Shown here: positions 27,676 through 31,453 of the stretch, one piece after another
Layout of the letters: each line of letters begins with the position of its first letter
Numbering within the stretch: position 1 is the stretch's first letter
NCBI GenBank assembly: GCA_902578775.1
Contig: CACHEF010000004.1
Location: 62,001 to 126,000 of the forward strand
Length of the DNA: 64,000 bases
Direction: 5' to 3'
Origin: an uncultured Pelagibacteraceae bacterium
GTDB taxonomy: Bacteria > Pseudomonadota > Alphaproteobacteria > Pelagibacterales > Pelagibacteraceae
Translations under genes and position numbers: made by a program
Notes under the pieces: generated by a model
Database searches by the model: none
What the model was told of the DNA's origin: nothing
What the model saw: only the letters and a program-made list of their open reading frames with translations

Positions 27676-28089
27676 ATGTTTTCCAATAAAAAAAAAGAAA
27701 AAAATAGAGAGTCCGATTTTGTAAAAATTGGCGCATTACTTATTCATGCAGCTAGAATCGATGAGAATTACTCCAAAGAAGAAGAAGAAATTATTAGAAA
27801 AACGTTATTAAATCTTGGTGCAAATAAGAATGACTTAGAATCCTTAATGACTAAAGCAAAACAATGTGAGAATGACTCAAATCAAATATTAGATTTTACA
27901 AGAGAAATTAAAAATCTTGAAGAAATAAATAAGATTAAGATAATAAAATCACTTTGGGAAATTATCTATTCAAATAAAGATGCAGATATTTATGAGACAA
28001 ATTTAATGAGAAGACTTGCAGGACTACTTTATATTGACAGTAAAACCATGGGAGATATTAAAGATAAAATTGAGAAAGATAATTTATAA
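27676..28089 (+). CDS. TerB-like domain protein
   Basis: 137 aa helical; [26 protein letters not shown] ... [12 protein letters not shown] resembles TerB/DjlA-N domain. Confidence 0.65.
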
Positions 28090-28415
28090 TGACATATATT
28101 GTAAATGACAAATGTATCAAATGTAAACTTACGGACTGTGTTGATGTGTGTCCGGTGGATTGCTTTTACGAAGGTAAAAATATGCTTGTAATTAAACCGG
28201 ATGAGTGTATAGATTGTGGCGTTTGTGAGCCTGAGTGTCCAGTTAGCGCTATCACCGCAGATACAGAGCCAGGCAGCGAAAAATGGTTAGAAATCAATAA
28301 GCAATATTCTGAAATCTGGCCCAATATAAGTGAAAAAAAAGATCCGCCATTGGATCACGAAAAATTTAAAGATGAACAAAATAAGTTTGAAAAATATTTT
28401 AAAGAAAACCTTTAA
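28089..28415 (+). CDS. fdxA: Ferredoxin (7Fe type)
   Basis: 108 aa; [21 protein letters not shown]...[13 protein letters not shown]. Confidence 0.94.
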
Positions 28416-29274
28416 AAAAAAACCTACTAAAAATAAAAAAAAAAAAGTTGTTTTAAAAAAAACAACTAAAAGCAAAAAAACAAAAAAAAATTTACCAAAA
28501 AAAAAAGTAAATAAAGTTTTAAACAAAAAAATATCTAAAGTTAAAAAGATTGATAACAAAAAAACAACAAGTAAAACTTTACGAAACAATGAAGAAAAAA
28601 CTGAAAATTTAAGAATATCAAAGAGTAATGAGGTAAAACCGGAAATAAAAAAAGTAAAAAAACAAGATTCTGAAAAAAAACAGTACAAAGTAAAAGATTA
28701 TATTGTTTATCCAAAACATGGCGTTGGTCAAATTACAGAATTTAAAAAGATTAATATTGGTGGTATTGATGTTGAAACCTACATTATTAAGTTTGATAAA
28801 GATAAAGCAAATGGAATGGTTCCTGTTAATAAACAATCTCATCTCAGACCATTAGCAACCATTAATCAAGTTAATAAATGTATCTCTATTTTAAAGAGTA
28901 AACCTAAAATTAAGAGGTCAATGTGGAGTAGAAGAGCTCAAGAATACGAAACAAAAATATCTTCTGGAAAAATTTATGAATTAGCTGAAGTTGTAAGAGA
29001 TTTAAATAAAGGTGATGACCTTATGGTTGATCAATCTTACAGTGAAAGACAATTATTCGAAAAAGCATATGAAAGAATTTTATCTGAATTCCAAATAGTA
29101 CTTGGTTTTTCTTTAGAGGATACTCAAAAAAAACTTGATAAAGCGCTAAAAAGAAATTTAGGTGGAGGACAGCAGCCCCCAGCTGCGGTTACACCTTCTA
29201 AAACTTCTGCAGATGAATTACCTACAGAAGAGCCGATAAATGATGCTGATGTAAATGATCCAATTGATGATTAA
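28372..29274 (+). CDS. carD: CarD/TRCF-RID family transcription regulator with Lys-rich N-terminal extension
   Basis: C-terminal ~170 aa: [27 protein letters not shown]...[36 protein letters not shown] is CarD; first ~110 aa Lys-rich and low complexity; exact start uncertain. Confidence 0.88.
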
Positions 29275-29317
29275 AAAAAACGCCTCTCAAACAAAAAGTT
29301 ATGAGAAGCGTTTTTTT
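29273..29317 (+). terminator. Bidirectional rho-independent terminator between carD and the basic micro-gene
   Basis: A-run + CGCCTCTCA ... TGAGAAGCG + TTTTTTT; inverted repeat with one mismatch, U-tract on both strands. Confidence 0.85.
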
Positions 29318-29335: not shown

Positions 29336-29419
29336 CTATCTTCTTCTTCTTTTTTTAGCTTTTTTCTTTTTAGCTTTTTTCTTAGTTTTCTTTGCCGCTT
29401 TTTTTCTTCTCTTAGGCAT
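29336..29419 (-). CDS. 27-aa highly basic, histone-H1-tail-like micro-protein
   Basis: Reverse-strand ATG...TAG: MPKRRKKAAKKTKKKAKKKKAKKRRRR (14 K, 6 R); SD GGGAG 6 nt before ATG; own promoter-like element and terminator. Confidence 0.65.
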   Translation of the reverse strand: MPKRRKKAAKKTKKKAKKKKAKKRRRR

Positions 29420-29441
29420 CTTTAGCTCCCTTTTTTAGTTA

Positions 29442-29461
29442 AACGAATCAAATGATTCGTT
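29442..29461. promoter_or_regulatory. Perfect 9-bp inverted repeat (AACGAATCA-AA-TGATTCGTT) upstream of the basic micro-gene
   Basis: Perfect dyad, 23 bp upstream of the ATG; minus-strand TTGACA at 29494-29499 upstream of it. Confidence 0.55.
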
Positions 29462-29628
29462 ATTAACTTATTTTTATTTTTTTAAACAAGTTATGTCAAT
29501 TCTTTAATTAAATTAAAAAAAAATCAAAAATAAAAAAAATAAGTTTAAAATAAAAAATAATTCATTTTTTTATAATTTAAAAAAAAGTTAATGTTTATGC
29601 GCTTTATAAACAGTTATTTTACAATAAA

Positions 29629-31362
29629 TTAATAAAGTTTTTCTAAATCTTGTTTATATTTTTCTAAAATTTTTTTTCGTTTAAGTTTTAAAGTTGGTGT
29701 TAACATTCCATTATCAATTGTAAATTCTTCTTTAATTAATTTAAATTTCTTAACTTTTTCCACTGATGACAAACTTTTATTTAATCTTTCTATATAAGCT
29801 TCAATATCTTTTTTATTTTCATCTATTTCACTTACAATTAAGGCTACTAAATAAGTCTTTTTATCTCCATAAACTAAACTTTGCTTTATTTTTTCATTTA
29901 GACATAATAAATTTTCAATTTTTGATGGTGAAATGTTATCACCACCTATATTAACTATAATTTCTTTTTTTCTGTCTGTAATCTTTAGATTCCCATCTTT
30001 TGTAATTTCTCCTATATCACCAGTATGCAGCCAGCCATCTTTTATAATTTCTTCTGTTTCTTTTTTCATATTCCAATATCCAAGCATAACATTTTCACCT
30101 CTTACTAATATTTCTCCATCATTAGCAATCTTAATCTCATTAGTTTTAAAAGGTGGACCAACTGTCTCTATCTTAATTTTTCCAGGGATATTGCAGCTTA
30201 CTACAGGAGAGGTTTCTGTTAATCCATAACCCTGTAGAGTTGGCAGTCCTATAGAATTTAAAAATTCACCTATTTTTTTTTCTAAAGCTCCTCCACCAGA
30301 AACGAAGGCTTTTAATTTACCTCCAAATTGTTTTTTAATTTTTTTTCTAACCAATTTTTCACAAAAAAAATTGACAATTTTTTCCTTGAAATTTAGTTTT
30401 TCATTATTCAGATTTTTTGTCCCAAGCAAAATAGTGCTTTCTATTAATTTTTTTTTAAATCCTGTTTGTTTTGAAAAATTAAAAAAAATCTTGTTATATA
30501 AATTTTGGTAGAATCTTGGCACTGCTGTCATAATAGTAGGTTGAGCGACTGCCATATTCAGTAATAACTTTTCTAAACTTTCAGCATAATAAACTTTTGC
30601 TCCTAGAAATATCTGTACATATTGAACTGTGTGTTCATATGAGTGAGATAATGGAAGCCAAGTTAAAAAAACTGGTTTTTCATTTTTAACTAATGTATCT
30701 AGAATGTCTTTTGCACCTTCACAGTTGGATAAAATACCTCCATGACTAAGCATAACGCCTTTAGGATTGCCTGTTGTGCCAGATGTATAAATTATACAAG
30801 CAAGATCATTTCTTTTCAATTTTTGATTATATAAGTTTTTCATAGGATCAAGCTCATTAGATTTATCATGAAAAACTTTTTCAAAAATTTTATTAAAGCA
30901 AACTATATTTTGATTAAATGGTTCTATCGAAATAAGAATTGTTTCATCTTGAATATAATTTTTTATTTTTTTGAATTGTTCAATATTTGAAACTATACAA
31001 ACTTTTGGTTTGCAATCATTTATTATATATTTGTAATCATTTTCTGAATAAGTTGTAAAAAGAGGAACAGTAACTCCGCCTGCATTCATTATAGCTATAT
31101 CAGAAATAAGCCACTCAGGTCTGTTTTCAGATAATAAAATACATCTATCACCTTTAGAAATATTACTTTTCAAATAGTTCGATAAAACTGTAATTTTATT
31201 ATTTGTCTCTCCCCAAGAATAAGAGAATGTTTTATCACCCTTATGTTTTCCTTTGAGTGATATTAAAAAAATATTCTCTTTTTTTTCAAAATTATTTAAA
31301 GTTACTTGTTCAAATTTTTTAAAAAAGAGTTCAACTAGACTATTTATTTCTTTTAATTTCAT
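29629..31362 (-). CDS. Long-chain acyl-CoA synthetase (AMP-forming)
   Basis: LACIIYTSGTTGNPKGVMLSHGG, GYGLTETSPVVSCN, DGWLHTGDIGEITKDGNLKITDRKKEIIV; start set at MKLKEINS because the longer ORF runs into a tRNA. Confidence 0.92.
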   Translation of the reverse strand: MKLKEINSLVELFFKKFEQVTLNNFEKKENIFLISLKGKHKGDKTFSYSWGETNNKITVLSNYLKSNISKGDRCILLSENRPEWLISDIAIMNAGGVTVPLFTTYSENDYKYIINDCKPKVCIVSNIEQFKKIKNYIQDETILISIEPFNQNIVCFNKIFEKVFHDKSNELDPMKNLYNQKLKRNDLACIIYTSGTTGNPKGVMLSHGGILSNCEGAKDILDTLVKNEKPVFLTWLPLSHSYEHTVQYVQIFLGAKVYYAESLEKLLLNMAVAQPTIMTAVPRFYQNLYNKIFFNFSKQTGFKKKLIESTILLGTKNLNNEKLNFKEKIVNFFCEKLVRKKIKKQFGGKLKAFVSGGGALEKKIGEFLNSIGLPTLQGYGLTETSPVVSCNIPGKIKIETVGPPFKTNEIKIANDGEILVRGENVMLGYWNMKKETEEIIKDGWLHTGDIGEITKDGNLKITDRKKEIIVNIGGDNISPSKIENLLCLNEKIKQSLVYGDKKTYLVALIVSEIDENKKDIEAYIERLNKSLSSVEKVKKFKLIKEEFTIDNGMLTPTLKLKRKKILEKYKQDLEKLY

Positions 31363-31368
31363 AACTTT

Positions 31369-31453
31369 TGGTGGGCGAAGAGAGAATCGAACTCTCACTT
31401 CTTGCGAAACACGATTTTGAGTCGTGCGCGTCTACCAGTTCCGCCATTCGCCC
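31369..31453 (-). tRNA. tRNA-Leu(CAA)
   Basis: Reverse strand GGGCGAATGGCGGAACTGGTAGACGCGCACGA-CTCAAAA-TCGTG...GAGAGTTCGATTCTCTCTTCGCCCACCA; long variable arm; CCA encoded. Confidence 0.94.

Follow-up and report, generated by a model that had tools for sequence, protein, structure and literature searches.

The window, a stretch of 64,000 nucleotides, comes from a genome of the Pelagibacterales (SAR11). It contains a minus-strand micro-ORF, convergent to carD, which encodes a peptide with 20 lysine or arginine residues out of 27 and no aspartate or glutamate (Table 1). An initial annotation, made from the sequence alone, described this ORF and its composition, a GGGAG Shine-Dalgarno sequence (SD) six nucleotides upstream of the ATG, a TTGACA hexamer at 29494-29499, and a rho-independent terminator shared with carD. 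All of these elements are present where they were described; the hexamer reads from 29499 to 29494 on the minus strand, and the terminator holds as a strong hairpin with T-runs. The initial annotation missed the inverted repeat CGAATC-ATTT-GATTCG between the promoter and the SD, the conservation of the unit, and the longer orthologues.

Table 1. Features of the carD/micro-ORF locus (window coordinates)
Feature	Position	Strand	Remarks
Ferredoxin gene, upstream of carD	28089..28415	+	4Fe-4S cysteine motifs
carD, convergent	28330..29274	+	matches PF02559 and PF21095 (above cut-off); CarD RID and C-terminal domains, with an N-terminal extension rich in Lys
Terminator-like hairpin, bidirectional	29276..29313 (about)	both	T-runs on both strands; shared with carD
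Micro-ORF, MPKRRKKAAKKTKKKAKKKKAKKRRRR	29336..29419	-	27 codons + TAG; syntenic orthologues in 59/59 named Pelagibacteraceae loci
Shine-Dalgarno GGGAG	29426..29430	-	6 nt before ATG; 59/59 loci, 5-6 nt before ATG
5'-terminal hairpin CGAATC-ATTT-GATTCG	29444..29459	-	predicted fold; hairpin predicted in 72/72 leaders
GANTC sites in hairpin	GAATC 29458-29454; GATTC 29449-29445	-	
Putative -10, TAAAAA (17-nt spacer) or AAAAAT (18-nt spacer)	29470..29476	-	inferred from spacing
-35 hexamer TTGACA	29494..29499	-	58/58 loci with enough DNA
AMP-forming acyl-CoA synthetase-like gene, upstream neighbour	29629..31398	-	same strand as micro-ORF

CarD has a Lys-rich N-terminal extension of ~100 residues (encoded at 28330-28700, plus strand) and an acidic C-terminus; the Lys-rich tail previously ascribed to it is corrected to this N-terminal part. 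carD and the micro-ORF encode two Lys-rich chains tail to tail. The relevance of CarD as a neighbour, as proposed earlier, is reduced to synteny, and no functional link has been shown. The ferredoxin-carD order is the same in SAR11 and other alphaproteobacterial loci. Divergent Pelagibacteraceae (L088, L090) retain the acyl-CoA synthetase neighbour, which is replaced in the sister family. Of that family, loci L098 and L107 were compared with other alphaproteobacteria for the neighbours of carD. In L098 the genes after carD are an H1-like gene, a small tRNA-binding-domain-like gene and then an rpoH-like sigma factor gene; in the other alphaproteobacteria (L092, L105, L109) an rpoH-like sigma factor gene comes after carD. 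Pelagibacteraceae have the acyl-CoA synthetase gene in its place.

Many bases between TTGACA, CGAATC and GGGAG vary among leaders while these elements stay the same. A sigma-70 match alone is not above shuffled sequence (2 found, 3.1 expected); the promoter is credible because it is conserved, not because of this match. Transcription is predicted from spacing to start at about 29464-29461, and the start is unmapped. The -35 hexamer lies 34-35 nt before CGAATC in 58 Pelagibacteraceae loci, so that only a few bases at most separate CGAATC from the predicted start. Transcription itself is inferred. The unit is predicted to be monocistronic with a transcript of ~188 nt, which corrects the ~150 nt first suggested. 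The predicted RNA folds better than shuffled versions (z -3.3), and the low energy comes largely from the terminator. A simple terminator scan missed the hairpin at ~29276-29313, probably because its loop and bulge fall outside the limits of the scan. In the relatives inspected for it, the ORF is likewise followed by a GC-rich hairpin with T-runs.

The micro-ORF is a real gene, conserved and under coding constraint. Relatives were gathered with CarD as the synteny anchor, giving a named set of 59 Pelagibacteraceae loci with enough DNA. In all 59, a Lys/Arg ORF lies immediately beyond carD and is read from the other strand. Together these ORFs encode 33 different peptides of 20-35 residues with 65-83% K/R, the remainder being mainly Ala; length changes are in-frame, and the stop is always TAG or TAA. 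A further, unnamed set of same-genus loci with a complete unit also carries the ORF (17/17), with possible overlap between the two sets. Loci that share the most frequent peptide differ at five alignment columns, each of them a third codon position. Pooled substitution rates are 0.171 per synonymous site and 0.028 per non-synonymous site, giving a ratio of 0.16 (Nd/N to Sd/S). ORFs of at least 20 aa with K+R of at least 60% and no acidic residue are absent from five simulated Markov genomes; G012, a complete relative of 1.34 Mb, contains two. These are the micro-ORF (74% K+R) and MNKLKLKSKLKKRKKLKKLKLKKNKKKSLK, at C1:648232 on the plus strand, which has exactly 60%. The conserved loci, in-frame lengths, ratio of 0.16 and absence from simulations identify a real gene, and a chance ORF is ruled out by conservation and the simulated genomes. 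Lack of conservation at the syntenic locus had been named in advance as grounds for refutation; the ORF is conserved throughout the order. In G012 the gene lies ~100 kb from the replication origin, as placed by GC skew. It has apparently been overlooked, being below the usual limits of gene callers; however, existing SAR11 annotations were not checked, notably for the 80-91-residue versions described below. The peptide would also escape tryptic proteomics, since trypsin cleaves after nearly every residue.

The leader was searched for as a pattern (TTGACA, 30-40 nt, CGAATC, 3-12 nt, GATT). It is present in 236 of 298 Pelagibacterales genomes, nearly always once per genome; a reversed control gave only about a dozen matches in these genomes. 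Eighteen pattern-negative genomes were re-examined. Seven also lack carD, and in these the locus probably lies in an assembly gap. The ORF is present in each of the 11 with carD, once with a GTG start, and several of the 11 represent genera whose hairpin departs from the pattern. No basic ORF was found beside carD in 14 non-SAR11 loci, and a class-wide search (a sample of 116 genomes) gave only scattered, chance-like pattern matches outside SAR11. The presence of the unit in other alphaproteobacteria was rejected on these grounds.

The peptide varies greatly in length between lineages. In the window's genus it has 20-35 residues; in other Pelagibacteraceae genera (L193-L201) it has 31, 34, 36-38, 50 or 58, that of L193 being MAKKRKKAAKKKATKKKATKKKAAPKKKKAKAKKRKK. 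The sister family has, at this position and in this orientation, genes for K/A/P-repeat proteins of 80-91 residues (e.g. MEELKVIFAKARKKAKKKAAPKKKRKAAKRKPAKKK...), which are histone-H1-like in composition and have only two acidic residues, near the start. The sister-family and intermediate genes are convergent to carD, and the leader TTGAC(A)-N-CGAATC-hairpin-SD is common to all. The repeat units are A-K-K-(K), with AAPKKK also found in longer versions, and there are conserved terminal blocks at the N-terminus (M[AP]KRRKKA...) and the C-terminus (...KKRRRR). Because synteny, orientation, leader and composition are held in common, the 20-91-residue series is likely to represent one orthologous gene of very different lengths. 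Shrinkage and expansion are both compatible with the series, and neither direction is favoured.

CGAATC is present in 59/59 named Pelagibacteraceae loci, and the first GANTC site of the hairpin (GAATC) is invariant in all 72 leaders compared; the second is found in 48 and is missing from 24. In most leaders CGAATC pairs with GATTCG, or with GATTTG via G-U; G-U wobbles keep the pairing in 14 leaders. In genera g5-g7 the stem is shifted inward (TCACTTAAA/TTTAAGTGA, TCACATAAT/ATTATGTGA) with changes on both sides, and CGAATC is unchanged even though its first bases are unpaired. CGAATC is therefore under constraint beyond pairing. Covariation is found only in the inner pairs: position 7 is A-T, T-A or C-G, and positions 8, 10 and 11 also change. 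It cannot be scored in the stem core, as the 5' arm never varies. Every 100-nt leader contains 1-2 GANTC sites, compared to 1.7 per kb in the surrounding loci. The genome-wide frequency in G012 is 1.22 per kb, about half of the roughly 2.6 given by base composition; GANTC appears depleted in this genome yet fixed in the leader. The inverted repeat was rejected as a common regulon element: CGAATC-N3-7-GATTCG has a single occurrence each in the window's genome (G000) and in G012, and a relaxed version, GAATC-N3-9-GATTC, occurs only 1-2 times per genome, no more than its reversed control. A known structured RNA was also rejected. An Rfam scan of the window returned only two tRNAs, with no match at the locus, and a survey of structured RNAs in SAR11 does not mention carD (PMC2704228).

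The GAATC within CGAATC is a GANTC site, which is the site of the cell-cycle methylase CcrM. CcrM has been described for SAR11 (PMC3973325), and methylation of GANTC is nearly complete in a SAR11 culture (PMC9516812). A conserved GANTC in a Caulobacter promoter predicts expression that depends on CcrM, particularly for genes of replication, topology and division (PMC3973325). Methylated GANTC enhances binding of GcrA (PMC3667746), whose sites work upstream or downstream of promoters; few GcrA targets are predicted in SAR11 (PMC7987155). Genes for GcrA (PF07750) and a CcrM-type methylase (PF01555) are found above cut-off in G000, G012 and G025. Besides the CcrM-type one, G000 has a second N6/N4 methylase match (C13:1792-2793, a 476-aa frame) on another contig. 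Members of a CcrM/GcrA regulon should have a conserved promoter GANTC in orthologues and a genome encoding GcrA and a CcrM-type enzyme; both hold here, as they do for the Caulobacter promoters of mipZ and ctrA (P1). The SAR11 promoter differs from these in that its methylation, GcrA binding and response are only inferred. Control by CcrM/GcrA is a reasoned inference and not a result, drawn from the fixed GANTC, the encoded GcrA and CcrM, SAR11 methylation and the Caulobacter precedents. It rests on a conserved 5-mer inside an invariant CGAATCA, which an RNA-binding factor might explain equally well.

No Pfam, NCBIfam or significant PDB relatives of the peptide were found, and the literature library that was searched holds nothing relevant on histone-like or small basic peptides in SAR11. 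Bacterial H1-like proteins (Hc1/Hc2/AlgP/BpH1-type) are Lys-rich with Ala/Pro and without acidic residues. The gene meets this description, apart from the two acidic residues of the sister-family form, and it shares in-frame length variation by repeat number (20-35, 31-58 and 80-91 residues); it does not match the profile of a named family (Pfam, NCBIfam). Hc2 (HctB) of Chlamydia is likewise built of Lys-rich repeats that contain Ala. Strains differ in the number of these repeats, so that the chain changes length but stays in frame, and length change by lysine-rich units is the hallmark of this DNA-binding protein (PMC2848022). However, Hc2 has 165-237 aa and pentamer/36-aa repeats, belongs to another phylum and shows no detectable homology; most SAR11 versions have 20-35 aa. 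The C-terminal domain of AlgP/PhaF in Pseudomonas is a disordered K/P/A repeat tail of H1-like composition, similar to the 80-91-aa orthologues, and KPAA-repeat peptides of AlgP bind DNA (PMC9239181). AlgP differs in having a helical N-terminal domain of ~124 aa before the tail, whereas the SAR11 gene encodes the tail only. Sperm protamines are also very short, extremely K/R-rich and free of acidic residues; they are eukaryotic and Arg-dominated, whereas Lys predominates in the SAR11 peptide, with Ala as the spacer, and the likeness is an analogy only. Bacterial H1-like proteins are thus known as a kind, but a universal stand-alone version of 20-37 residues behind a conserved methylation site is likely to be new.

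On balance, the gene is best explained as encoding a minimal H1/protamine-like, nucleic-acid-condensing peptide, probably under CcrM/GcrA control; this reading is rated as somewhat more likely than not. Translation, nucleic-acid binding and a nucleoid role are inferred, and there is no experimental evidence of a transcript, a peptide or binding. A monocistronic gene would produce a disordered, K/R-rich peptide that binds to phosphate backbones, mainly those of DNA, neutralises them and contributes to compaction of the SAR11 nucleoid; how far it reaches would depend on how many A-K-K-(K) or, in longer versions, AAPKKK units it has. CcrM methylation of the GANTC at the predicted start, read by GcrA, would time expression to replication, and the 5' hairpin may stabilise or regulate the mRNA. 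Some 20 positive charges spaced by alanines give the composition of an H1 tail; there is no hydrophobic core, and folding into a domain is not to be expected from sequence alone. The H1-like idea is strengthened by the 31-58-residue intermediates and the 80-91-residue K/A/P-repeat orthologues in sister lineages. The initial annotation had compared the peptide to histone H1, HU tails and protamines, and suggested a nucleoid, RNA or ribosome role; this is supported, with the alternatives narrowed but undecided. Against this reading, a Lys/Arg peptide would bind RNA, ribosomes or polyphosphate as readily, SAR11 already has three HU/IHF-type genes, and the terminal blocks are more sequence-specific than charge requires and may indicate a specific site.

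The main rival to the chromatin reading, and a possible one, is a lineage-specific peptide associated with the ribosome or RNA, with the 5' hairpin acting in feedback control as in ribosomal-protein leaders. The proteins bTHX, bS22 and bL37 have 20-45 residues and are strongly basic, like the SAR11 peptide. Size, charge, conserved termini and a structured 5' leader in 72/72 leaders support this rival, as do the candidate structured leaders before rpsB and rpsL in SAR11 (PMC2704228). However, those proteins are of fixed length, whereas the SAR11 peptide is plastic in repeat length; growth of K/A/P repeats to 91 residues is unlike a fixed ribosomal contact, and a conserved GANTC is unexpected at a ribosomal gene. 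No profile or sequence match to bTHX, bS22 or bL37 was found in Pfam, NCBIfam or PDB, although queries of 27 low-complexity residues have little power. Another rival concerns control only and overlaps with the preferred explanation: the chromatin peptide is the same, but CGAATC and the hairpin act purely as RNA, either stabilising the mRNA or offering the peptide a site for autoregulation, and CcrM/GcrA play no part. Pairing kept through G-U wobbles and the shifted, covarying stems speak for it. The invariance of CGAATC in g5-g7 speaks against it, as something more than pairing must hold this sequence; the RNA-only view is rated as less likely than not.

Two further rivals carry less weight. 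The peptide might be a general polyanion binder with polyphosphate as its main ligand; AlgP, which has an H1-like tail, localises to polyphosphate granules (PMC9239181). Polyphosphate kinase (ppk, PF02503) is found in the window's genome and in the sister-family genome G025. However, G012, which is complete and of the same genus, has the gene but no PP_kinase match, which argues against this as a general function and makes it unlikely. A regulatory small RNA with an incidental ORF could account for the conserved hairpin and terminator and for the better-than-shuffled fold. It is very unlikely: the low folding energy is mostly that of the terminator, 33 different peptides of a single family share an intact reading frame, as do forms of up to 91 residues in other groups, third-position changes are synonymous, and the SD and start codon are conserved.

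A bolder form of the H1/protamine-like reading is a universal, apparently unannotated micro-protamine of 20-37 residues that condenses the chromosome and is switched by replication-coupled GANTC methylation. This version is rated as less likely than not. If it is true, few dedicated chromatin proteins of free-living bacteria would be as small as this peptide, which would either have arisen by reduction of a longer H1-like protein or have been the ancestor which expanded into one. SAR11 are the most abundant bacteria in the ocean, and all of their complete loci that were examined have the gene beside carD. Since an entire order with streamlined genomes (~1.2 Mb, with very little spare DNA) keeps it, it is likely to matter to the cell. 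It provides a testable candidate for how DNA is packed in cells as small as those of SAR11, and it might serve as a readout of CcrM/GcrA control in this group; the natural series from 20 to 91 residues may show the minimum length at which an H1-like tail still functions.
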